64,000 nucleotides of DNA from Phaeobacter sp. B1627. GTDB taxonomy: Bacteria > Pseudomonadota > Alphaproteobacteria > Rhodobacterales > Rhodobacteraceae. Below the pieces are notes generated by a model. The model saw only the letters and a program-made list of their open reading frames with translations. It did not search any database and had not been told where the DNA came from. The first letter of the stretch is position 1. Each line of letters opens with the position of its first letter. The stretch lies in assembly GCF_006265095.1 (NCBI RefSeq), contig NZ_VCNK01000020.1, positions 124,001 to 188,000 of the forward strand, written 5' to 3'. A program made the position numbers and the translations under genes. Positions 23,751 to 42,829 of the stretch are shown here, in pieces.

Positions 23751-24266
23751 ATGGCAGACAGTTCACAGAAGTTCATTGCGCGTAATCGCGCGCCGCGAGT
23801 TCAGATCGAATATGATGTGGAACTTTACGGTGCCGAGAAAAAGGTTCAATTACCGTTCGTTATGGGTGTCATGAGTGACCTCGTCGGCAAATCCGAAGTG
23901 GAACAGCCAGCGATTGCGGACCGTAAATTTCTCGAAATTGATGTCGATAACTTTGATGACCGGATGAAGTCGATGGCGCCTCGGGCGGCCTTCACGGTTC
24001 CAAATACGCTGACCGGTGAAGGCAACCTGGCGGTCGATATTACGTTTGAGAGCATGGACGATTTCAAGCCCGCTGCCATCGCTGCAAAAGTAGAACCTTT
24101 GCGCGAGCTACTTGAAGCGCGGACACAGCTTTCCAATCTAATGACCTATATGGACGGCAAGACAGGCGCCGAGGATCTTATTTCAAAGATCATTCAAGAC
24201 CCGAGCCTGCTCAAGACTTTGGCCGCGCAGCCCGCCCCCGGTGGTGCTGACGATGCTGGCGAATAG
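23751..24266 (+). CDS. tssB: Type VI sheath small subunit TssB (VipA)
   Basis: A 171-residue protein with the conserved VipA start SSQKFIARNRAPRVQIEYDV and the MGVMSDLVG and LAVDITFESMDDF blocks. TssB pairs with TssC to build the contractile sheath recycled by ClpV. A strong GAGGAGG site precedes the ATG. Its first 40 residues are nearly identical to those of the fusion protein encoded at 34407-38273, so the window encodes two TssB domains. Confidence 0.95.
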   Translation: MADSSQKFIARNRAPRVQIEYDVELYGAEKKVQLPFVMGVMSDLVGKSEVEQPAIADRKFLEIDVDNFDDRMKSMAPRAAFTVPNTLTGEGNLAVDITFESMDDFKPAAIAAKVEPLRELLEARTQLSNLMTYMDGKTGAEDLISKIIQDPSLLKTLAAQPAPGGADDAGE

Positions 24267-24285: not shown

Positions 24286-25782
24286 ATGGCTGAACAAGAC
24301 CTTCAGACAGAAGCCGCCGCAGGCGCCTCCGCGTTTGGCTCCAGTGAATTCGCAAACCTGCTGCAAAAGGAGTTTCGCCCGAAATCCGACCAGGCGAAGA
24401 CCGCAGTGGAATCTGCCGTCAAAACTTTGGCGGAACAGGCGCTGGCGAATACCAGCCTGGTTTCGGACGATGCATTGCGATCGATCGAAAGCATCGTTGC
24501 CGAGATTGACAAGAAGCTGACGGAACAGGTCAACCTGATCCTTCACAATGAAGATTTCCAGCAATTGGAAAGCGCCTGGCGCGGGCTGCATTACCTGGTG
24601 AACAACACTGAAACCGACGAGCAGCTCAAAATTCGGGTTCTGCCGGTCTCCAAGAAAGAGCTGTCCAAGACGCTCAAGAAGTTCAAGGGCACCTCCTGGG
24701 ATCAATCCCCGATCTTCAAAAAGATCTATTCCGAGGAATTCAGCCAGCTTGGCGGCGAACCCTACGGCAGTCTCGTCGCCGACTTCCACTTTGATCATTC
24801 TCCGCCGGACATTGAGCTTCTGGGTGAAATGTCCAAGATCGCCGCTGCGGCGCATGCTCCGCTGATCACCGGTGCGAAACCGACCCTGTTCCAGATGGAT
24901 AGCTGGTCGGAACTGTCGAACCCGCGTGACCTGACCAAGATTTTCCAGACGCCGGAATACGCAGCGTGGCGCTCTTTGCGTGACAGCGAAGATGCCAAGT
25001 ATGTCGGGCTTGCCATGCCGCGCTTCCTGGGCCGGTTGCCATACGGATCACAGACGGATCCGGTTGAAGAATTCGCCTTTGAAGAAGACACCGAGGGCGC
25101 GGACAGCAACAAATACGCCTGGGTCAATGCCGCCTATGGCATGGCAACCAACATCACCCGTTCCTTCAAGACCTATGGGTGGTGCTCGCGGATCCGTGGT
25201 GTCGAAAGCGGCGGAACGCTGGAGGGGCTGCCTTCGCATACTTTCCCGACAACGGACGGTGGTGTGGATCAGAAATGCCCGACCGAGATCGCAATCGATG
25301 ACCGTCGCGAAGCGGAGCTGGCCAAGAACGGCATGATGCCGCTGATCCACCGCAAGAACACGGATGTGGCGACATTCATCGGCGCGCAGTCGCTGCACAA
25401 GCCTGCGGAATACGACGACCCGGATGCCTCTGCCAATGCCAACCTTGGTGCGCGTCTGCCCTATCTCTTTGCGACCTGCCGCTTCGCTCATTACCTGAAG
25501 TGTATGGTTCGCGACAAAGTTGGCTCTTTCAAGAGCCGTCAGGACATGGAGTCCTGGCTCCAGGATTGGATCAACAATTACGTTGATTTCAATGCCGACA
25601 TCTCATCCGAGTCCGAGAAAGCGCGCAAGCCGCTTGCGTCGGCCGAGGTGGTTGTCGAAGAGGTCGAAGGAAACCCGGGCTATTACAGCTCGAAGTTTTT
25701 CCTGCGTCCGCATTACCAACTGGAAGGCCTGTCAGTATCTTTGAGACTGGTTTCCAAACTGCCCTCCGAGAAGGGGGGCTGA
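24286..25782 (+). CDS. tssC: Type VI sheath large subunit TssC (VipB)
   Basis: A 498-residue protein of normal TssC length, with LESAWRGLHYLV, GLAMPRFLGRLPYG, the FATCRFAHYLKCMVRDK block and the C-terminal FFLRPHYQLEGLSVSLRLVS sheath-forming segment. Start follows GGGAGGG. It lies 19 bases after tssB. The complete C-terminus contrasts with the TssC-like part of the later fusion protein. Confidence 0.95.
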   Translation: MAEQDLQTEAAAGASAFGSSEFANLLQKEFRPKSDQAKTAVESAVKTLAEQALANTSLVSDDALRSIESIVAEIDKKLTEQVNLILHNEDFQQLESAWRGLHYLVNNTETDEQLKIRVLPVSKKELSKTLKKFKGTSWDQSPIFKKIYSEEFSQLGGEPYGSLVADFHFDHSPPDIELLGEMSKIAAAAHAPLITGAKPTLFQMDSWSELSNPRDLTKIFQTPEYAAWRSLRDSEDAKYVGLAMPRFLGRLPYGSQTDPVEEFAFEEDTEGADSNKYAWVNAAYGMATNITRSFKTYGWCSRIRGVESGGTLEGLPSHTFPTTDGGVDQKCPTEIAIDDRREAELAKNGMMPLIHRKNTDVATFIGAQSLHKPAEYDDPDASANANLGARLPYLFATCRFAHYLKCMVRDKVGSFKSRQDMESWLQDWINNYVDFNADISSESEKARKPLASAEVVVEEVEGNPGYYSSKFFLRPHYQLEGLSVSLRLVSKLPSEKGG

Positions 25783-26450: not shown

Positions 26451-27260
26451 GTGTCCATGACAGCACAAGAGCATCTGAAAGAGAGCGATCCGGCTGCGGC
26501 TTTGACCGCGTTGCAGGACGAAGTTCGGAAAGATCCGTCCAATGCCAAATTGCGGATCTTTCTGTTCCAGCTCCTGTGTGTTCTTGGGGACTGGAAGCGC
26601 GCGGTCACCCAGTTGAAACTATCCGCCGACATGGACAGCGCGGCGACGACGATGGCTCAGGCCTACCGCGAAGCCATCATCTGCGAGGTCTATCGCGACA
26701 AGGTCTTCAAGGGCGAAAAGGATCCCCTGATCTTCGGTGAGCCGCAAGAGTGGCTCGCGCTGCTGATTCAGGCACAAAAAGCGCAGGCAACCGGCAACAT
26801 CCAGCAGGCCGCCGACATCCGTGCGCGTGCGTTCGATGCCGCTCCGGCGGTGAGCGGAGAGATCAATGGAACGCGGTTCGACTGGATCGCGGACGCGGAC
26901 TCGCGCCTGGGCCCGGTACTGGAAGTCATTGTAAACGGGCGTTATTTCTGGATGCCCTTTGCTCAGATCGAGACGCTGGAACTGGAAGAGCCTGCGGACC
27001 TGCGGGATTCGGTGTGGATGGCGGGTACGCTGACACCGAAAGAGGGCGGTGCGCTCGCCGTTCTGGTGCCTGCCCGTTACCCGGGATCAGCCGAGGCCGG
27101 TGGCAAGGCCGCGCTGGGCCGGGAAACCAATTGGACCGATTTGGGCGCCGATACGTTTTCAGGTCTGGGGCAGCGTGTTCTGGCCACCAACGTCGAAGAC
27201 GTCGCGTTGATGGATCTGCGTTTGCTGAAGATGGACGGGAGCACGTCTGGCGATGGCTGA
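26451..27260 (+). CDS. tagJ: TagJ/ImpE-like accessory protein
   Basis: A 269-residue protein with N-terminal tetratricopeptide-like helices (AAALTALQDEVRKDPSNAKLRIFLFQLLCVLGDWKRA) and a C-terminal beta domain with YFWMPFAQIETLELEEPADLRD, the ImpE signature. In other systems TagJ binds the TssB N-terminus and tunes ClpV action. A GTG at 26451 stands eight bases after GGAG and is preferred over an ATG two codons later. It overlaps tssE by eight bases. Confidence 0.88.
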   Translation: MSMTAQEHLKESDPAAALTALQDEVRKDPSNAKLRIFLFQLLCVLGDWKRAVTQLKLSADMDSAATTMAQAYREAIICEVYRDKVFKGEKDPLIFGEPQEWLALLIQAQKAQATGNIQQAADIRARAFDAAPAVSGEINGTRFDWIADADSRLGPVLEVIVNGRYFWMPFAQIETLELEEPADLRDSVWMAGTLTPKEGGALAVLVPARYPGSAEAGGKAALGRETNWTDLGADTFSGLGQRVLATNVEDVALMDLRLLKMDGSTSGDG

Positions 27261-30667: not shown

Positions 30668-33373
30668 ATGACTGAGATCAGCCGTGTGGCCTTGTTTGGA
30701 AAACTCAACAAACTGGGATATCAGGCCGTCGAAAGTGCGACCGTCTTTTGCAAGATGCGGGGCAACCCATATGTCGAGTTGGTGCATTGGCTGCATCAGC
30801 TTCTGGCGCAGCAGGACAGCGACATTCACCGCATCATTGCGCATTACGATCTGGATCAGGGGAAAATCGCAACCGAGCTGACGCGGGCGCTGGATATGCT
30901 GCCACGCGGGGCGTCGACGATTTCGGATCTGTCCGATCATCTGATGGACGCCATGGAGCGCGGTTGGGTCTGGGGCTCTCTGCTCTACTCGGCAAATCAG
31001 GTTCGGTCGGGGCATCTTCTGCTGGGGATGCTGAAGACACCGGCGCTGCGCAATATTCTGAACAGCATGTCCCCTGAACTGGCGCGCATTGGTCCGGACG
31101 ATCTGGCCGACCATTTCGCCGAGGCGACCGATGGCTCGCCGGAAGAGCGTTTGACGGCGCAGGATGGATCCAACGTGGGGGGCGGCGCCACTCCGGGCGA
31201 GGCCTCCGGCGCGATGAGCCCGGGCCAGATGGGGCAAGGAGAAGCGCTGGAGCAGTTCTGTACGGATCTGACAGCGCAGGCCAAGGCCGGGGAAATCGAC
31301 CCGATCGTGGGACGCGACGAAGAGATCCGCCAGATAGTGGATATCCTGATGCGGCGGCGCCAGAACAACCCGATCCTCACCGGTGAGGCGGGCGTCGGAA
31401 AAACCGCAGTGGTCGAGGGGTTTGCCCTTCGGATCGCCCGGGGTGATGTTCCGCCCGCTTTGCAGGATGTGCGTCTTCTGGTCCTGGATGTGGGTCTTCT
31501 GCAGGCCGGAGCCAGCATGAAAGGTGAGTTCGAAAACCGGCTGCGTCAGGTGATCGACGAAGTTCAGGCCAGCCCGACGCCGATTGTCATGTTTGTCGAT
31601 GAAACCCATACCCTCGTCGGGGCAGGCGGCGCAGCCGGCACCGGCGATGCCGCGAACCTGCTGAAACCGGCCCTAGCGCGGGGAACATTGCGGACCATCG
31701 GGGCAACCACCTGGGCGGAATACAAGAAATACATCGAGAAGGACCCGGCCCTGACCCGGCGTTTCCAGGTCGTCAAGGTCGAAGAGCCCTCGGTGCCCAA
31801 GGCGATCCTGATGATGCGTGGGATTGCATCGATGCTGGAAAAACACCACCGGGTTCAGGTTCTGGACGAGGGGATCGAGGCCGCAGTCAGCCTGTCCGCC
31901 CGTTATATTCCTGCCCGTCAGTTGCCGGACAAATGTGTGAGCCTCCTTGATACCGCCTGCGCCCGCGTCGCGGTGAGCCAGCACGCGGTGCCCGCCGAGG
32001 TGGATGACAGCCAACGCCGGATCGAAGCGTTGACCACCGAATTGGAAATCATAGGCCGCGATGAAACCGCAGGATACGACGTCGCGGACCGCCGCGAGGC
32101 CGTCACGGTGGCCAAAGATGCCGAAACCGCGCGGCTGGCTGAATTGACCGCCCAATGGGACAAAGAAAAATCCTGTGTCGACGCGATCCTTGACCTGAGG
32201 GCGAAGCTCCGGGAAGGGGCGGCCCCCGTCGATGTGCCGATGGCGGATGAAAATGCGCCGGAAAGCCCGCTGTCCGAGGAAGAGCGGGCGCAGCTCATGA
32301 CGGAGCTGAAAGCCAAGAACGCAGAACTGGAAACGCTGCAGGGAGACCGGCCGCTTATTCTGCCGATTGTCGATCACCAGGCGGTCGCGTCTGTGGTGGG
32401 GGATTGGACCGGCATTCCGGTCGGACGCATGGTCAAGGATGAGATCCAGACCATTCTCAATCTGGAGGAACACCTGGCAAAACGCGTGATTGGTCAGGAT
32501 CATGCGATGAAGATGATCGCCAAGCGCATTCAGACCAGCCGGGCGGGTCTTGATAACCCGAACAAGCCCATCGGTGTCTTCATGCTCGCCGGGACCTCGG
32601 GGGTCGGGAAAACCGAAACCGCACTGGCCTTGGCCGAAGTCCTCTACGGTGGTGAGCAGAATGTGATCACCATCAATATGTCCGAGTATCAGGAGGCGCA
32701 TACGGTCAGCTCGCTGAAAGGCGCGCCTCCGGGGTATGTTGGCTATGGTGAGGGTGGTGTTCTGACCGAGGCGGTTCGGCGCAAACCCTATGCGGTCGTG
32801 CTGCTCGATGAAGTTGAGAAAGCCCACCCCGATGTGCATGAGATCTTTTTTCAGGTGTTTGACAAAGGCGTCATGGAGGACGGCGAAGGCCGGGTGATCG
32901 ATTTCAAGAACACGCTGATCCTGCTGACGACCAATGCCGGGTCGGACATGGTGATGGACATGTGTTCTGACCCGGACCTGCTACCGGACCCCGAGGGGCT
33001 GGCCAAGGCGCTGCGCGATCCCCTCCTGAAGGTGTTCCCGCCGGCCTTGCTCGGACGCATGGTCACGATACCATACTACCCATTGTCGCCGGGGATGATC
33101 GCAGAGATCACGAAGCTGCAACTGGGCCGGATCCAGAAACGGGTCGAAAGCTCCCATGGTGTTCCTTTCGTCTATACCGATGCGGTGGTCGATACGATTG
33201 TCGATCGCTGCCAGGAGCTGGAGAGCGGCGGCAGGATGATCGATGCGATTGTCACCAATTCGATGCTGCCGGATATTTCAAATGAGTTCCTGCGCCGCTT
33301 GATGGAGGGGCAGGAGGTCAAGACCGTCTCAATCGATGTGGATGGAGGCGAATTCACATATGCCTTTGACTGA
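30668..33373 (+). CDS. tssH: Type VI AAA+ ATPase ClpV (TssH)
   Basis: A 901-residue double-AAA+ ATPase. It has an N-terminal Clp domain, a first Walker [10 protein letters not shown] with [12 protein letters not shown], a coiled-coil middle domain (about 470-560), a second Walker [10 protein letters not shown] with [11 protein letters not shown] and [13 protein letters not shown] pore-loop region, and a small C-terminal domain. It unfolds contracted TssC for recycling. GGAAGGA before the ATG at 30668 sets the start. Size and ClpV-type N-terminus distinguish it from ClpB. Confidence 0.95.
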
Positions 33374-33553
33374 CACCGTCCAGGGCGGTGAAGGCTATGA
33401 ATTTTCCGCTGCCAAGGGATGCTCGCGGAGCAGAGGCAGACATTGCGAAGCATCACCGGTGGCGGAAATCCCGCCCCACCCTGTGATGAGATACGGCGAT
33501 TTATGCGGCCGCATTCCCGGCCAGACGTGGAAACGAACCATGGAGACGTGAAC

Positions 33554-34414
33554 GTGTCAGAAGTGACCACCAATACACCGGCATTTGGGTCCAGGGCCTG
33601 GGCGCAGGCCTTGATCGAGCGGCCAAGCGTGACAAATGCTATCCTTGTGGTGATCATTTTCAACGCGGTGACACTCGGCCTGAGTACATCGGATGTCGCA
33701 CAGGCGCACATCGGCGGATTGCTCGACATCATAGACCGGGCCGTAATTGCGATCTTCATAGTTGAACTCAGCCTCAAGCTATATGCCTATGGCCTGCGGT
33801 TCTTTTCCTCTGCCTGGAACGTGTTCGACCTGATTGTGGTGACACTTGGCCTGCTGCCAGACCGGCAGGGGCTGTCGGCTCTGCGCGGATTGCGCGTGAT
33901 CCGCGCGCTGCGGCTTTTGTCTGTGATTCCGCAAATGCGAGCGGTTGTTCAGGCGTTGCTGGACGCGCTGCCGGGCATGGGCGCTGTGATCGTGATGATT
34001 TCGATCGTGTTCTATGTCTTCGCCGTGATGTCGACGCTCATGTATGGTGACGGCTTTCCGCAATGGTTCGGCACATTGGGCAGGTCCTTCTATTCGCTGT
34101 TCCAGATCATGACGCTGGAGAGTTGGTCCATGGGGATCGTACGCCCCGTCATGGAGGTGCATCCCTTCGCCTGGGCGTTTTTCGTCCCCTTCATCGTGGT
34201 CACGGCATTTTCGGTTCTGAACCTCTTTATCGGTCTTTTGGTGAACACCATGCAATCTGCAGTGGAGGCGGAAACCGAGGCCGAGATTTCCAAGCTCAGA
34301 GATCTGGTGAAATCTGAAACCGATGTCGTGGACGCCCATGTGGTGGAGCTACGCGATGAAATCCGGTCCCTGAGAACCGAAATTGCTGCGTTGCGGGAGA
34401 AAGACAATGGCTGA
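33554..34414 (+). CDS. Bacterial voltage-gated sodium channel (NaChBac/NavMs type)
   Basis: A 286-residue six-helix channel. The S4 segment (about 110-129) carries Arg111, Arg114, Arg117 and Arg120 at three-residue spacing. The pore has the filter TLESWSM (187-193), the sodium-selective signature of bacterial Nav channels, followed by an S6 helix and a heptad-like coiled-coil C-terminus (about 240-286), as needed for tetramers. Start is GTG at 33554, eight bases after GGAG; length matches the family. It lies inside the type VI operon between clpV and the TssB-TssC fusion and overlaps the latter by eight bases, so it is co-translated with it. Role in secretion is unknown. Confidence 0.93.
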   Translation: MSEVTTNTPAFGSRAWAQALIERPSVTNAILVVIIFNAVTLGLSTSDVAQAHIGGLLDIIDRAVIAIFIVELSLKLYAYGLRFFSSAWNVFDLIVVTLGLLPDRQGLSALRGLRVIRALRLLSVIPQMRAVVQALLDALPGMGAVIVMISIVFYVFAVMSTLMYGDGFPQWFGTLGRSFYSLFQIMTLESWSMGIVRPVMEVHPFAWAFFVPFIVVTAFSVLNLFIGLLVNTMQSAVEAETEAEISKLRDLVKSETDVVDAHVVELRDEIRSLRTEIAALREKDNG

Positions 34415-37400
34415 CAGCTCTCAAAAGTTCATTGCACGCAATCGGGCGCCTCGGGTGCAGATCGAATATGATGTCGAGCTTTATGGCGCCGAAAAAAAGG
34501 TGCAGTTGCCGTTCGTAATGGGGGTGATGGCGGATCTGGTGGGGCAATCAAAAACGGCCCAGCCTGCGATTGCGGATCGGAAATTTCTGGACATCGACGT
34601 CGATAATTTTGATGAGCGTATGCGGTCTCTCGCTCCGCGCGCGGCGTTTTCGGTTCCGAATACGCTGACGGGCGAAGGAAACCTGTCGGTTGATCTGACA
34701 TTTGAAAGCATGTCGGATTTCTCGCCCGGAGCGATTGCCTCCAAAGTGGATGCCCTGCGCCCCCTGCTGGACGCGCGTCAACAGCTTGAACAGTTGATGA
34801 CCTATATGGATGGCAAAGCGGGCGCTGAGGAACTGATCGAGAAAATTCTGGGGTCGCCGGCACTTCTGTCATCGCTCGCGGCGTCTAGCGCATCGGCGGG
34901 TGCAGAAACGACCGCGGCCCTGCAGAGCCTGCGGGAGGTTGAAGTACCAGCCGAGGACAGGGGTCCCGACACGGCGGATATTCTGGGGCAGCTTGCGTCA
35001 CACGCGCCTGAGACCGCGCAGGAGGCTGACCCAACCGCCGGAATTCTGGGTGCGCTGAGCGCGGCTGCGCCTCAATCACCCACCGCCGATGACGATGCCG
35101 CGGATGTTCTCTCCGCACTCGCCGCCGTCGAGCCGGATGTGGTTGCGGACCAGAACAGTGGCACGGCCGAAACGCTGGCGCACCTTGCGGCATCCGCTCC
35201 GGTGGCAGAGATCGAAGAGGACGAGACAGGCGCCGTGTTGTCGGAGCTCGGCCGTCAGGAGCCTGTGGTCGCGGAGCCGGATCGCGCGGTTGACGATGCG
35301 CTTGCGGATCTGGCAGGGCAAATTTCGGCCGAAGAGCCAGACGCCGAAGACATGACATCCGGTATTCTCAGCGGCTTGGCGGCCTCTGCACCTGATCACC
35401 CGTCCGAAGAGCAGGATATACAGGGCGATATTCTGGCCAATATCACCCGGCGCGACAATCAGGCAGAGGGAGCAGAACAAGAGGTTCAGGATGTTCTGGC
35501 GAGCCTTGATACAGGCGTCGAAGATACCCCCTCGGATCAAGTGGATATCGCGAGCGTACTCTCCGGCGTTGAAGCGGTCGAAGAGACGGCAGAGCCGGAG
35601 GATGAAGATCTGACCAGCCTGCTCGCAGACCTCGACACGCCGCAAGACGCTGAAACGGTGAGTGTCGATGACGTTCTGTCCGGTTTGGAAACTCCGGACG
35701 ACAGCACAGCCGAGGAAGACATCGACCTTGATGCTCTGCTTGGAGATCTCGACACGCCTGACGATGCGGTTGAGACAAGCGCCGACGATGTGCTGGGGAG
35801 CCTCGGTGCGGTGGAGGAGGCCGCGGATGAGGAAGAGCTCGACCTGGATGCGCTGCTTGGTGATCTCGACGCGCCTGACGATGTGGTTGAGACAAGTGCT
35901 GACGATGTGCTGGGGAGCCTCGGTGCGGTGGACGACGCCGCAGATGAGGAAGAGCTCGACCTGGATGCTCTGCTTGGCAGCTTGGATGCGCCGGAAGATG
36001 TTTCAGAACCGGCTATCGCTGATGCAGCCGCTGATGTGACGGAAGGCGCCGCGTCTGCGCCGGAGGATGATCTCGATTTGGACGCTTTGCTTGGTGACGT
36101 TGACGCGGACGGAGGAGAGAGCGGTTTCGATGCGCAGCCTGACGACGGAGATTTCGATCTCGACAGCCTGCTGGCCGAAACAGAACAGCAGGATGCGGAA
36201 AGCGCCCTCGATCCTGATGCGCTGCTTGGCGGCGAGCCTGAGGCCGACGAACAGGAAGCAAGCCTTGCCGAAGATACCGCAAACACAGTGGCAAATGACA
36301 CGGGCGACGATGATCTTGATGACCTGTTGGGTGGCCTTGATCTGGGGGAAGCTGACACGGATGACCTCGATGATCTGGATGCGCTGTTTGGGGACCTTGA
36401 TGCGGAGGTCGATACGGAAGAGGCTGATGATCTCGATGATCTGGATGCGCTTCTTGCCGATCTCGGCGATGATGACGGTTCGGATGATGCAGGACTTGAT
36501 GCGTTGCTGGGCGATTTGGACGATGGCGATGCGCCGACAGACGACGAGAGCAGCCAACGCAAACCCGAGCTTGCATATGGCACGATTTCAGCAGACAGGC
36601 CGGAGCCGCAAAAGCTGACACGCAAGCGCTTCCGCATCGCTATTTTCGGCGATTTCACCGGCCGCGCGGCAAAGGGGCAGCTCGACACCGGGGAGGCCCT
36701 GGCGGAGCGCAAACCGATCGTGCTGGATCCGGACACGATTGACGACGTCATCGAGAGCTTTGCGACCGAGCTTGTGCTTCCGATTGGAAAAGAGGGTGCG
36801 GGCATTTCCGTAAAGCTGGGCGAGATCGACGATCTGCACCCGGATGAGCTTTATGACAACGTTGCGCTGTTCTCCGAACTGGTCAGTCTGCGCAAGCAGC
36901 TTCAGAGCGGGGTCACCAAAGATCATGCCATGAAGACCCTGTCTGGCTGGGCCGAGGCACATGGCACCCCGGCGCGTGCGCCGAAATCGCGGTCTGGCGG
37001 CAATGCGGTGCCCGCCGACAAAAGGCTGAGCGACTTCCAAAGCCTGATTGGCGACACAACCAACAGTCTGCGCACGGTTTCCCCGGTCGAAGATATGATG
37101 GCGCGGATCGTGGGGCCCCATATCCGTGCCTTGCCGGATCCCAATCTCGGCGCAATGCAGGAGGCGGTCGACCTTGCGCTCTCAGATGCGATGCGGTTGG
37201 TCCTGCATCACCCGGAGTTCCAATCGGTAGAGGCGCAGTGGCGCTCGTTGGATCTGATCGCGCGATCAGTCGAAGTCGACGATACTCTGGACGTGATGGT
37301 CTATGATGTCTCGGCCGAGGAGCTGGCGGCAGATCTCGCGGCGCAGGAGGACCTGTCCCAAACCGGATTTGTGCGCCTGCTGACCGAAGACCCGATGGAC

Positions 37401-38273
37401 GAGGAAACTGGCCGTGGCGCCTATTCTGCGCTTGTTGGTCTCTATACCTTTGAGGAAACGCCCCCGCATGCCGAATTGCTGGCGCGATTTGCACGCGTTG
37501 CAGCGCATGTCGATGCGCCTTTCCTGGCTGCCATTACGCCCGGTTTCTGGGGCACGGAGAAGGCAGAGCGGCCAAAGGTCGTGGCGGAGGCATGGGATAC
37601 GCTGAGCGGCATGGCAGAAGCGGGCCATCTCGGGCTTTTGACGCCCCGGTTTCTGTTGCGGCGACCCTATGGCGCCCGGTCGGAGCCGATTGATCCCTTC
37701 GACTTTGAGGAGTTCACCCAGGCGGAAGGGCTGCGTGGCATGCTGTGGGGGAACCCGGTGGTTCTCGCCGCTATTCTGATGGCGAAGTCCTTCAGGGAGA
37801 ACGGCCCGTCCCTGCAACTGGGATCTATCATGTCTTTGGGGGATATGCCGTTTCACTATGTGAACGACCGCTTCGGGGATCAGGTTGCTCTGCCTTGTAC
37901 GGAACGCAATGTGGACCTGGAAAAGATTGCAATTGCCAAAGAACGTGGTTTCATGCCGATTGCGTCTGTCCGCGGCAGGGATGAGATCCGCCTGACCTCC
38001 TTCAACTCTTTGCGTGGCGACACCTTGCTGGGACCCTGGACAGGAGAACCAGCGCCTGAACCGTCACCACCGGACCCGCGACCGTCGAAACCTGCGGCGG
38101 CGGAAGGTGGCGATACCGGCGACAGCGACGATTTAGACTTCGATTTTGATTTGGACGATGCCAGTGGTGACGACGACGATTTGGACGCGCTGCTTTCTGG
38201 ATTTGGAGACGACGATACTGATTTGGACGGCGATTTGGATGCCGACCTTGAGGCACTTTTGAATGACCTATGA
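34407..38273 (+). CDS. TssB-acidic repeat linker-TssC-like fusion protein
   Basis: A 1288-residue protein. Residues 1-165 are a full TssB domain nearly identical at its start to the separate TssB. Residues 165-720 are an extremely acidic Ala/Asp/Glu/Leu linker with recurring LDALLGDLD and DDVLGSLGAV units. Residues 725-1215 are TssC-like (RFRIAIFGDFTGRA, EAQWRSLDLIARSV, GLLTPRFLLRRPYGARS, DPFDFEEF). The last 60 residues are another Asp-rich tail. The C-terminal sheath segment FFLRPHYQLEG of real TssC is missing. It probably binds sheath or baseplate parts in a regulatory role rather than polymerising. The ATG at 34407 overlaps the channel gene. Confidence 0.85.
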   Translation: MADSSQKFIARNRAPRVQIEYDVELYGAEKKVQLPFVMGVMADLVGQSKTAQPAIADRKFLDIDVDNFDERMRSLAPRAAFSVPNTLTGEGNLSVDLTFESMSDFSPGAIASKVDALRPLLDARQQLEQLMTYMDGKAGAEELIEKILGSPALLSSLAASSASAGAETTAALQSLREVEVPAEDRGPDTADILGQLASHAPETAQEADPTAGILGALSAAAPQSPTADDDAADVLSALAAVEPDVVADQNSGTAETLAHLAASAPVAEIEEDETGAVLSELGRQEPVVAEPDRAVDDALADLAGQISAEEPDAEDMTSGILSGLAASAPDHPSEEQDIQGDILANITRRDNQAEGAEQEVQDVLASLDTGVEDTPSDQVDIASVLSGVEAVEETAEPEDEDLTSLLADLDTPQDAETVSVDDVLSGLETPDDSTAEEDIDLDALLGDLDTPDDAVETSADDVLGSLGAVEEAADEEELDLDALLGDLDAPDDVVETSADDVLGSLGAVDDAADEEELDLDALLGSLDAPEDVSEPAIADAAADVTEGAASAPEDDLDLDALLGDVDADGGESGFDAQPDDGDFDLDSLLAETEQQDAESALDPDALLGGEPEADEQEASLAEDTANTVANDTGDDDLDDLLGGLDLGEADTDDLDDLDALFGDLDAEVDTEEADDLDDLDALLADLGDDDGSDDAGLDALLGDLDDGDAPTDDESSQRKPELAYGTISADRPEPQKLTRKRFRIAIFGDFTGRAAKGQLDTGEALAERKPIVLDPDTIDDVIESFATELVLPIGKEGAGISVKLGEIDDLHPDELYDNVALFSELVSLRKQLQSGVTKDHAMKTLSGWAEAHGTPARAPKSRSGGNAVPADKRLSDFQSLIGDTTNSLRTVSPVEDMMARIVGPHIRALPDPNLGAMQEAVDLALSDAMRLVLHHPEFQSVEAQWRSLDLIARSVEVDDTLDVMVYDVSAEELAADLAAQEDLSQTGFVRLLTEDPMDEETGRGAYSALVGLYTFEETPPHAELLARFARVAAHVDAPFLAAITPGFWGTEKAERPKVVAEAWDTLSGMAEAGHLGLLTPRFLLRRPYGARSEPIDPFDFEEFTQAEGLRGMLWGNPVVLAAILMAKSFRENGPSLQLGSIMSLGDMPFHYVNDRFGDQVALPCTERNVDLEKIAIAKERGFMPIASVRGRDEIRLTSFNSLRGDTLLGPWTGEPAPEPSPPDPRPSKPAAAEGGDTGDSDDLDFDFDLDDASGDDDDLDALLSGFGDDDTDLDGDLDADLEALLNDL
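35784..36017 (+). repeat. 117-base direct repeat inside the acidic linker
   Basis: A unit starting GACGATGTGCTGGGGAGCC at 35784 recurs with few changes at 35901, a period of 117 bases (39 codons). A more diverged copy precedes it from about 35667 and short LDALL-type units continue to about 36530. The two best copies are similar at DNA as well as protein level, suggesting recent expansion. Confidence 0.75.
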
Positions 38274-40522: not shown

Positions 40523-41155
40523 ATGGCTGAGATGTTTGAAAATTTGGTGAAACTGCCGAAGGAGCCGGTGGCGAAAATCTTGTCGCGACAACAGGTGTTG
40601 TTGAAAACGCGTCTGGAGAGTGAGGTCAGTGCGACCGCGCCTCAGGTGATTTCCGAACTTTACGAGAAAAAGGCGATGATCGATCTGCTGCGGCTCATGG
40701 GGATCCTGTTGCCGCCGCGCGAAAGGGTCTGGTGGGCCTGTCTTGCGGCCCGTGATTATATCGGCCCGCGCAGCCCGAAGGACCCCCCGTCCCTTTCCAC
40801 GTCAGAAGCCTGGGTCGTCGATCCGACAGAAGACAACAGACAGGCCGCTCGGATCACGATTGACCATGCCTATGTGGATGATGATACCGTGAACTGCGCA
40901 TGGGCGGTGACCTACCATGACGGAACCCTCGGGCCGGGAGATTTGCGCCAATACCCGGCGCCGGCCGGTGCCGCAGAAGCTGCGGCATTCGCCATGAATA
41001 TGGTGGCCTTGGGGCAATTATCTGATAAGTTTGAAGAACATGGCTATATACTGATCGAGAGGGCGCTGGATATTGCCCGTGGCGGAAATGGCCATATTGG
41101 GACTGCGGCTGCAGATGCGGCGGGTATGCCGAAAATCGTTTCGGAAGCAAATTAA
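40523..41155 (+). CDS. Type VI-associated protein of unknown function
   Basis: A 210-residue soluble protein with PPRERVWWACLAARDYIGP near residue 65 and an Ala-rich C-terminus (AAAFAMNMVALGQLS). It starts 11 bases after vgrG and precedes tagH. I recall a family of similar T6SS-cluster proteins (possibly DUF6931) but cannot confirm the name. Position after vgrG suggests an adaptor or a chaperone for spike loading; an effector is also possible. No signal peptide or membrane helix. Confidence 0.7.
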   Translation: MAEMFENLVKLPKEPVAKILSRQQVLLKTRLESEVSATAPQVISELYEKKAMIDLLRLMGILLPPRERVWWACLAARDYIGPRSPKDPPSLSTSEAWVVDPTEDNRQAARITIDHAYVDDDTVNCAWAVTYHDGTLGPGDLRQYPAPAGAAEAAAFAMNMVALGQLSDKFEEHGYILIERALDIARGGNGHIGTAAADAAGMPKIVSEAN

Positions 41156-41177: not shown

Positions 41178-41264
41178 ATGCGCAGACGCGCTCTTGCGGG
41201 TGATCAATGTCCTGGCCGTCTCTCTTGCTGCGCAGGTAGGGGAGAGGTGATGCTATGGGAGTGA
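41178..41264 (+). CDS. Possible 28-residue leader peptide before tagH
   Basis: ATG at 41178 is preceded by a textbook AGGAGAGG site seven bases away, and the frame ends at 41264, overlapping the tagH start by ten bases. The peptide (MRRRALAGDQCPGRLSCC...) has three cysteines and no recognised motif. It could be a translational-coupling leader for tagH, or a chance frame. Confidence 0.3.
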   Translation: MRRRALAGDQCPGRLSCCAGRGEVMLWE

Positions 41265-42829
41265 GGTTGCGATTCCAGTCGTCTGGCACAATGCCTTCGG
41301 ATGCGACCCCGCTGGAATTGCGCGGGCCAAGTCTGACCATTGGGCGAGGGGCCACAAATGACGTGGTTCTGCCAGATCCGGATCAGTTGCTCTCTCGCAA
41401 TCATTGCGTCATTGAAGATCACGGCAGCCATGTCTCTGTCGTGGATCTGAGTTCCAACGGCACGTTTTTGAACTATAGCAAAATGCCGCTCGGGCCGACG
41501 CCGACGCCGCTTCATGATGGCGATGTTCTGACCGTCGGCGCCTATGAACTGGCAGTGGACATCAGCCAGGACAGCGGTGTGCCGGACCCGCTTGCGGTCG
41601 ATCCGCTGGCGGCGGATCCGTTGTCGCCGGGGCATGCGGAAAACGCCCCTGATCCGTTTGCCTTGCTGGATGATGCAGGCCCGGGCGGAGATTTCCTCGA
41701 TGATCTGTTGGGGGAAAACACCACCCCCAAAGGGCCGTCTCAGATGAACCCGGTGGATCCCATCGACGATCTGTTGCCGCCTCTCGGAGAGGAAGAGGAT
41801 CCCTTCTTTCAGACGCCGGACGACGGGCGCCAGGGACAGGGTGCCAGTTTGCCGTCCCATAATCCCGCAGTTCAGGACGGGTTCAGCCCTCAGCTTGCAC
41901 CGCAGTCATCTGTGATCCCCGACGATTGGGATGACGAGTTCCTGTCGGGGATCGGCTCCGCCGAAGACGCGCCCAGGCCAGAGATCCAACCCTTTGCCCG
42001 GCCGGCTGAGGTTGAGCGTCCTGTACCGACGCCCGCTCCGTTCGAGGCCTCTCCGCCGGTTGCACCCACTGTTCCGGTCGCGTCAGATGATCCCTTTGCC
42101 GCGCCGATTGCCGGCGTCGAGGACAGAACAGCCGCGCCTGAACCGCAAGCGGCGCCCCCTGTTGCGGTTGATCCTGAGCCTGCGGTGACAGCCCCCGCCG
42201 AGCCGTCGCCAAAGCCCGCAACCTTGCCATCGGATGGCAGCGATGTGCGGGCATTCGTGGATGCTCTGGCTGTTGAGGATCTGGAAATATCCGCAGAAGA
42301 TCAGACGCCGGTGATGGAACGCATGGGCCGCGTGATGCGTATCTTCATCATTGGATTGCGTGAAATCCTGATGACGCGCACCTCGATCAAATCGGAGTTC
42401 CGGATCGAGCAGACGATGATCTCTGCCGGGGGAAATAACCCGCTGAAGTTTTCCATTTCCCCGGAGCAGGCCATCGAGTCCATGATAAAGCCCCGGGCCC
42501 GTGGCTATCTGGACGCCGAAACCGCCGCCGAAGAGGCATTGAGAGACATAAAAGCCCATGAAATAGCCATGGTCACCGGGATGGAGGCCGCTCTGAAAGG
42601 GGTGCTTGCCAAGCTGGATCCAAAACTGCTGGAAGCGCAGATTGAAAAACGTGGTGGACTTGGTGGCATTTTGCGGAACAAGAAGGCCCAGTATTGGGAC
42701 GTATACGAAAACCACTACGCTGAGATCTCCGATCAGGCGGAAAACGAATTTCATGATCTGTTCAGCCGGGAATTCGCACGCGCATACAAGGCGCAGATGG
42801 ACCGATTGAAAGAAGACGCTGACACGTAG
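41255..42829 (+). CDS. tagH: FHA-domain protein TagH
   Basis: A 524-residue protein. The N-terminal FHA domain (about 1-105) has LTIGRGATNDVVLPD, LSRNHCVIED and DLSSNGTFLN, which recognise phosphothreonine. A Pro/Asp-rich linker (105-325) leads to the type VI FHA C-terminal domain (MERMGRVMRIFIIGLREILM, KAQYWDVYENHYAEI). TagH is the target or scaffold of the PpkA kinase and PppA phosphatase, both encoded downstream. GGAGAGG precedes the ATG. Confidence 0.92.
   Translation: MGVRLRFQSSGTMPSDATPLELRGPSLTIGRGATNDVVLPDPDQLLSRNHCVIEDHGSHVSVVDLSSNGTFLNYSKMPLGPTPTPLHDGDVLTVGAYELAVDISQDSGVPDPLAVDPLAADPLSPGHAENAPDPFALLDDAGPGGDFLDDLLGENTTPKGPSQMNPVDPIDDLLPPLGEEEDPFFQTPDDGRQGQGASLPSHNPAVQDGFSPQLAPQSSVIPDDWDDEFLSGIGSAEDAPRPEIQPFARPAEVERPVPTPAPFEASPPVAPTVPVASDDPFAAPIAGVEDRTAAPEPQAAPPVAVDPEPAVTAPAEPSPKPATLPSDGSDVRAFVDALAVEDLEISAEDQTPVMERMGRVMRIFIIGLREILMTRTSIKSEFRIEQTMISAGGNNPLKFSISPEQAIESMIKPRARGYLDAETAAEEALRDIKAHEIAMVTGMEAALKGVLAKLDPKLLEAQIEKRGGLGGILRNKKAQYWDVYENHYAEISDQAENEFHDLFSREFARAYKAQMDRLKEDADT

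Follow-up and report, generated by a model that had tools for sequence, protein, structure and literature searches.

The tssCL gene and its domains

In a 64,000-nucleotide stretch of Phaeobacter sp. B1627 (contig NZ_VCNK01000020.1, positions 124,001 to 188,000, hereafter the window), a type VI secretion system (T6SS) cluster carries, beside an ordinary tssB-tssC pair, the long gene tssCL. It is a single open reading frame (ORF) of the plus strand, with an ATG start and 1288 codons, and sits between clpV and tagH, other genes intervening on both sides. A 1288-residue fusion next to separate tssB and tssC genes is what the original prediction had read from the letters of this DNA; the frame is indeed open, and both ordinary genes are present. 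The features of tssCL are as follows.

34407..38273, + strand: tssCL, coding for TssB, acidic linker, headless TssB/TssC core and acidic tail, 1288 aa (open frame, Pfam and NCBIfam matches, relatives)
34407..34886, + strand: complete fused TssB domain, residues 1-160 (PF05591 at 10-159; P. aeruginosa TssB1, 4uqz_B, E 3.4e-72)
34416..34538, + strand: residues 4-44, 41 consecutive residues identical to P. aeruginosa TssB1 (alignment), with the TagJ-binding peptide and the N-terminal strand region
34902..36581, + strand: acidic linker, residues 166-725, with repeated LDALL-type motifs (composition count)
35712..35977, + strand: 117-bp tandem repeat, 2.3 copies, within the linker (repeat finding)
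36630..36908, + strand: second, partial TssB-like (VipA) domain, residues 742-834, profile positions 1-27 missing (35.2 bits, profile 28-122)
37026..37055, + strand: LSDFQSLIGD segment, in the position of the N-terminal helix of TssC, putative docking role (comparison with TssC N-termini)
37161..38012, + strand: TssC N-terminal sheath domain (VipB, PF05943), residues 919-1202, no VipB_2 following (Pfam, NCBIfam; fold match 5n8n_B)
38052..38270, + strand: acidic C-terminal tail, residues 1216-1288 (27 acidic of 73, 2 K/R)
38181..38204, + strand: tail motif 1, LDALLSGF (pattern in 44 of 46 tails, two near-misses)
38238..38270, + strand: tail motif 2, DADLEALLNDL at the C-terminus (all 46 tails have the terminal motif)

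TssC homology beyond residue 725 was confirmed with TIGR03355 (TssC), which matches residues 916-1202 over model positions 52-351 of 473, with 132.5 bits, under its cut-off of 271.5. Pfam did not find VipB_2 (PF18945) in the tssCL product, whereas the ordinary TssC has both VipB and VipB_2; the predicted loss of the C-terminal segment therefore holds. The layout TssB, linker, TssC-like region also stands, except that the partial VipA domain at residues 742-834 had been missed, meaning that the TssC-like part proper begins later than residue 725; it runs to residue 1215. The same anatomy recurs in relatives. Among 30 cores, the window's included, Pfam detected the N-terminal VipB domain in all 30 and VipB_2 in none, and in the rows with a printed start the VipA match begins at profile positions 19-28. 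In 3 of 10 distant cores (L093, L096, L075), this VipA match lies below Pfam's own cut-off.

The sheath protomer is described as having three domains, of which the inner 'handshake' domain, made of strand 1 of TssB and strands 11-13 of TssC, is responsible for tube formation (PMC5807055). Since the VipA match starts late and VipB_2 is absent, both contributors to the handshake are gone together from the core. We conclude from these domain matches that the second half is a headless TssB-TssC protomer: with the canonical TssB/TssC (VipA/VipB) protomer it has in common the N-terminal domain of TssC, in sequence and in fold, and part of TssB, but it lacks the N-terminal strand region of TssB and the C-terminal domain of TssC. 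There is thus good support for the view that this half does not polymerise, as had been suggested for the whole fusion. The structure predicted for the core with its tail (predicted template modelling score, pTM, 0.74; mean predicted local distance difference test score 70) has as best structural match 5n8n_B, the TssC1 of the P. aeruginosa sheath (E 3.3e-12), and all nine matches at E <= 0.001 are T6SS sheath entries.

The N-terminal domain, by contrast with the core, is a full TssB, as predicted. The Pfam VipA/TssB match reaches 214 bits for the whole protein, and TIGR03358 (TssB) gives 203.5 bits against a cut-off of 97.25, the best stretch covering model positions 1-157 of 160. The TssB1 that it matches is also the small subunit of the solved P. 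aeruginosa sheath 5n8n. A TssB peptide has been crystallised with TagJ (complexes 4UQY/4UQZ, PMC4239648), and the TssB N-terminal strand is reported to join the neighbouring protomer (PMC5807055). Fused TssBs are 75-85% identical to the TssB of their own genome (17 genomes with both comparable), and the fused domain here is nearly a copy of the ordinary TssB. Among 30 fused TssBs, residues 1-45 are conserved best (mean identity 0.86 over residues 1-20 and 0.90 over residues 21-45) and residues 136-160 least (0.57); ordinary TssBs are better conserved than fused ones along the whole length, 24 of 39 standalone TssBs being taken for this regional test and the distant ones left out. On a tree of 69 TssBs, 30 of them fused, the fused copies mostly cluster together, with 3 label changes and a bootstrap that had not settled. 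A single origin of the fused TssB may be the case, and is compatible with this tree. On the same tree, recent conversion of sequence between the ordinary and the fused TssB was rejected, as the fused copies group together and not with the tssB of their own genome. To judge from its sequence, the fused TssB looks competent for the lattice, the visible features of such a TssB being kept.

Between the two lies a linker of 560 aa, with 32% D+E, 8 K/R and a net charge of -169, in line with the very acidic stretch of about 550 residues first described. Linkers of 30 fused relatives range from 185 to 993 aa, are 15-40% acidic and have net charges of -60 to -348. Two motifs are enriched when summed over these 30 linkers. 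L[DE].LL occurs 212 times, against 12.2 in shuffles, none of 300 shuffles reaching the observed count in 22 of the 30 linkers; [DE][LFI]..[LI][LI] occurs 191 times, against 17.7, with none of 300 reaching it in 19 of 30. Such counts are inflated by tandem duplication, as with the 117-bp repeat of the window's linker. The second acidic tail claimed for the protein is also there. Its two motifs are kept in the 46 tails counted, which include that of Eleftheria, the family pattern of motif 1 being LDxLLxxF. Near-copies (L037, L043, L051 and L056, of L007, L008, L017 and L034) as well as L020 and L021 were left out of the trees and of the linker and tail counts, and the tail-less L068 was excluded from the tail count. 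Motifs of the DFLDDLLG kind, resembling the TssCL tail motif, are also seen in the linkers of TagH (41255-42829 in the window, and at other loci), in 18 of the 23 TagH rows listed.

Distribution and ancestry of the core

A search of the family sample detected the second half in 27 of 248 genomes (E <= 1e-60). The N-terminal TssB is in the same ORF in 17 of them, the contig ends inside the linker in 3, and 7 are unfused. Fused relatives extend to Stappiaceae and Cohaesibacter, and are also found on plasmid records described as complete (L034, L035 and L036, from Leisingera, Parasedimentitalea and Qingshengfaniella). An assembly join between separate genes, the artefact that could have undone the original prediction, is ruled out by this recurrence in independent assemblies and in such plasmid records. 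No second core copy was found in the source genome, where the search matched only tssCL itself and the ordinary TssC.

In the class sample the core was found, by span in one frame, in only 2 of 385 genomes (the source genome and G148). The phylum sample of 398 yielded an unfused core in 2 genomes outside the class, plus the source genome as third, and in the order of one of them (G747), 10 of 194 genomes have the core, counted as frames free of stops with E <= 6.1e-100. Whole-profile matches with internal stops (e.g. G828, G718, G916) were apparently a tssB and a neighbouring tssC that the search had read as one, and were excluded from the phylum and order searches. In the betaproteobacterium Eleftheria terrae, the core is also unfused. 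Several of these cores neighbour T6SS genes. The unfused core of L091 and of L092 is the gene immediately 3' of clpV, and the operon contains a second tssC homologue too; the window resembles this clpV-core order except for one intervening channel gene. In L093, L096 and L075 the core is just upstream of tagH. Further headless core genes were found at L068:8026-9555, L074:8355-9917, L094:9128-10726 and L095:9226-10788.

The distribution bears on how the tether is to be viewed. Relatives without the fusion, and a core tree on which the fusion label switches 8 times (at least 6 of them forced), mark the tether as an addition to the function of the core, not its essence. A ruler or meter role, one of those first suggested, is disfavoured by the spread of linker lengths together with the 7 unfused relatives among the 27 sampled. 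Free drift of linker length and sequence, and the label changes, could be the signature of a decaying, functionless duplicate. We consider this very improbable, given the many invariant columns in the core alignments (14 and 20 rows), the kept tail motifs and the strongly conserved N-terminus of the fused TssB.

A protein of this type was described in 2022 under the name TssCL in roseobacters, as an apparent fusion of two sheath subunits (PMC9515649): a single long protein with two VipA domains and one VipB domain, encoded next to tssB and tssC in T6SS clusters. The window protein has this architecture, with a full VipA, a shorter second VipA and one VipB in one ORF and separate tssB and tssC in the cluster; no difference of kind separates it from the published protein, and it is one more TssCL. 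In the main text of that paper, acidic, linker, disordered and PF18945 do not appear as words; the paper was the only one retrieved by a full-text search for TssCL in an open-licence library. What is added here is the missing handshake domain, the tail motifs and the unfused relatives outside the class. That the fusion itself has been in print since 2022 lowers the surprise. Searches of an open-licence library did not find in print that the core belongs to a larger family of headless protomers, separate from ImpD-like TssCs, which exists unfused outside the class as well, in some cases beside clpV or tagH.

Could TssCL nevertheless be an ordinary sheath subunit, that is, a TssB-TssC fusion protomer polymerising with TssB and TssC? 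The published description of a fusion of both subunits would suit this, and a one-chain TssB-TssC with VipB_2 is known in another alphaproteobacterium (L023). We hold it to be very improbable: the second half is without either handshake contributor, and separate tssB and tssC are kept in all 17 fused loci of the family sample, as is a separate TssB in all 12 fused genomes among the 15 searched behind related loci. The direct fusions L023 and L025, from small-genome alphaproteobacteria, resemble TssCL in having TssB and TssC in one chain, but they are without the long linker (641 and 651 aa). They lie at L023:1201-3126 (VipA, VipB, VipB_2) and L025:1180-3135. In 14 of 70 matching class-sample genomes, open frames of 634-732 aa are candidate one-chain TssB-TssC proteins, the closer look having covered L023 and L025.

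A tree of 52 VipB N-terminal domains put 22 cores on one side of a branch with 100/100 support, and ordinary TssC and ImpD-like proteins on the other; four core rows form long branches whose placement is unsure. On this tree the cores are a family of their own, apart from the ImpD-like second TssCs. The point matters for another possible identity of TssCL, orthology to ImpD/TssC40, the second TssC found in Agrobacterium-type systems. Each is a TssC homologue additional to the ordinary one in a T6SS operon, and Hcp secretion is reported lost in a TssC40 mutant (PMC3702570). Still, all 7 ImpD-like proteins compared (two of them near-identical) have the full TssC architecture, with VipB_2 and without the VipA part, and branch with canonical TssC. 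Moreover, L091, L092 and L093 carry the core plus a second tssC homologue. Orthology was therefore rejected for the relatives examined, a set to which Atu4340 itself does not belong, and we regard it as most improbable.

Possible role at the sheath

At the place of the TssC N-terminal helix, Rhodobacterales cores have LSDFQxLIG or close variants (LSAFQ in L014, LSEFA in L016), and their own TssC proteins have EFANLL-like motifs. In V. cholerae, VipB is reported to bind ClpV via LLDEIM, and P. aeruginosa HsiC1 carries EFASLL (PMC4239648). Cores of other classes show VLDMLLHSTR (L091, L092), ILDEILAAGR (L093), ILDTMLAADR (L075), MLDAIL (L096) and FLDSIMQETQ (L074) at this place, and L068 shows DLLQSAL. 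An LLDEIM-like pattern fits the six cores L091-L093, L096, L075 and L074, while the Rhodobacterales cores fit only by analogy with EFANLL. The segment pattern could read 12 of the 22 cores, and the L, F, L and G columns of the segment do not vary in the alignments of 14 and of 20 rows; TIGR03355 matches L093 from model position 2 and L074 from position 4. A segment similar to the helix with which TssC docks to ClpV is retained in several cores, where it may have a docking role.

The architecture, its conservation, the missing domain and the gene neighbourhood are observed, and they lead us to propose, tentatively and at a little short of even chances, that TssCL is a sheath accessory, its TssB end in the sheath and its headless end a module on the outside for docking or regulation, with ClpV/TagJ as the likeliest partners. 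Incorporation, outward orientation, the partner and the effect are the steps that we infer. The fused TssB would pair with ordinary TssC and take the place of a TssB in the sheath. Its C-terminus would face outward, by analogy with the green fluorescent protein of TssB-GFP; a fusion at this end is tolerated in A. tumefaciens, where TssB-GFP is reported to give sheath-like foci and streaks and to restore Hcp secretion partly (PMC6945064). The linker may then hold the non-polymerising headless protomer and the acidic Leu-rich motifs on the sheath exterior, and this exterior module would most likely present or control docking for ClpV with TagJ, helping to set when or where the sheath is disassembled. 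As some relatives have no TssB domain, the core may also be able to work untethered. Of the roles first suggested, to cap, meter or tether the sheath, the tether fits this anatomy, the fused TssB looking lattice-competent, while cap and meter have no direct support.

The cap is nonetheless the main rival, albeit an unlikely one. A headless protomer on the sheath end would block growth or hold the distal end, the fused TssB anchoring in the last ring, and a protomer without handshake arms could join the lattice yet not extend it. On the other hand, the fused TssB could insert at any sheath position and not at the ends alone; Pfam found no ImpA_N, a domain of TssA-like proteins, in TssCL; and the cluster has its own tssA.

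A soluble decoy or chaperone is a slightly less probable alternative. Such a protein would use its TssB-like surfaces and its acidic motifs to bind ClpV, TagJ or unassembled TssC and so keep these away from the sheath. Unfused cores, the keeping of docking-like motifs and the strong acidity of the linkers all agree with it. In contrast, the N-terminal strand region of the fused TssB is under more constraint than a decoy would require.

Several observations weigh against a docking accessory on the sheath. The enrichment of linker motifs is weak or absent in L010, L012-L015, L018 and L060, the linker of L060 being just 15% acidic, and resemblance to acidic Leu-rich motifs arises easily. No such tail is present in the distant cores other than that of Eleftheria. 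The N-helix of P. aeruginosa TssC1, in a system that also has TagJ, is reported not to be required for the interaction with ClpV1 (PMC4239648). The tether is dispensable, as the unfused cores and the label changes indicate, and at the cores L068, L074, L094 and L095 no T6SS neighbour was recognised by the query set used. Finally, the full-length model of the relative L014 is poor (pTM 0.48), with a fused TssB of low confidence, and is uninformative on whether the fused TssB docks onto the core.

A bolder version of the accessory proposal, which we hold as a speculation, is that several T6SS lineages have an accessory that has gone unrecognised, headless TssB-TssC proteins that do not polymerise and keep the ClpV side. 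In Rhodobacterales and their kin, a duplicated TssB and a linker full of docking-motif copies akin to the tail motifs would have connected one of them to the sheath, giving a many-armed landing platform that sets the rate of disassembly by ClpV/TagJ. How ClpV recycles the sheath and how sheath length is controlled are matters still to be settled in the T6SS field, and TssCL amounts to a natural separation-of-function experiment, with a lattice-competent-looking TssB, a long tether that can be removed and a sheath unit without its polymerising domain.

The surrounding cluster

The T6SS genes of the window follow each other in the order tssA, tssB, tssC, hcp, tagJ, tssE, tssF, tssG, clpV, a cation channel gene, tssCL, vgrG, a DUF6931 gene and tagH. 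After tagH come tssK, tssL, tssM, tagF and pppA, named from their translations and from the order of annotated plasmid clusters. Those that enter the discussion above are:

23751..24266, + strand: ordinary tssB (Pfam, NCBIfam)
24286..25782, + strand: ordinary tssC, VipB and VipB_2 both present (Pfam, NCBIfam)
26451..27260, + strand: tagJ/impE (PF07024)
30668..33373, + strand: clpV/tssH (Pfam; start picked by comparison with relatives)

The channel gene separating clpV from tssCL (33419-34414) codes for a relative of voltage-gated sodium channels (PF00520; best PDB chain 5hvx, E 3.6e-77). It overlaps the start of tssCL by 8 bases, and a channel gene occupies the position between clpV and tssCL in 21 of the 24 family-sample loci covering that place. 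The DUF6931 protein, encoded 3' of vgrG at 40523-41155, has a relative in all 19 related loci. Elsewhere, the T6SS cluster of Eleftheria terrae has four consecutive genes annotated as Hcp (L032:1219-3455), and the plasmid T6SS clusters L034, L035 and L036 are bordered by genes with a caspase-family annotation.

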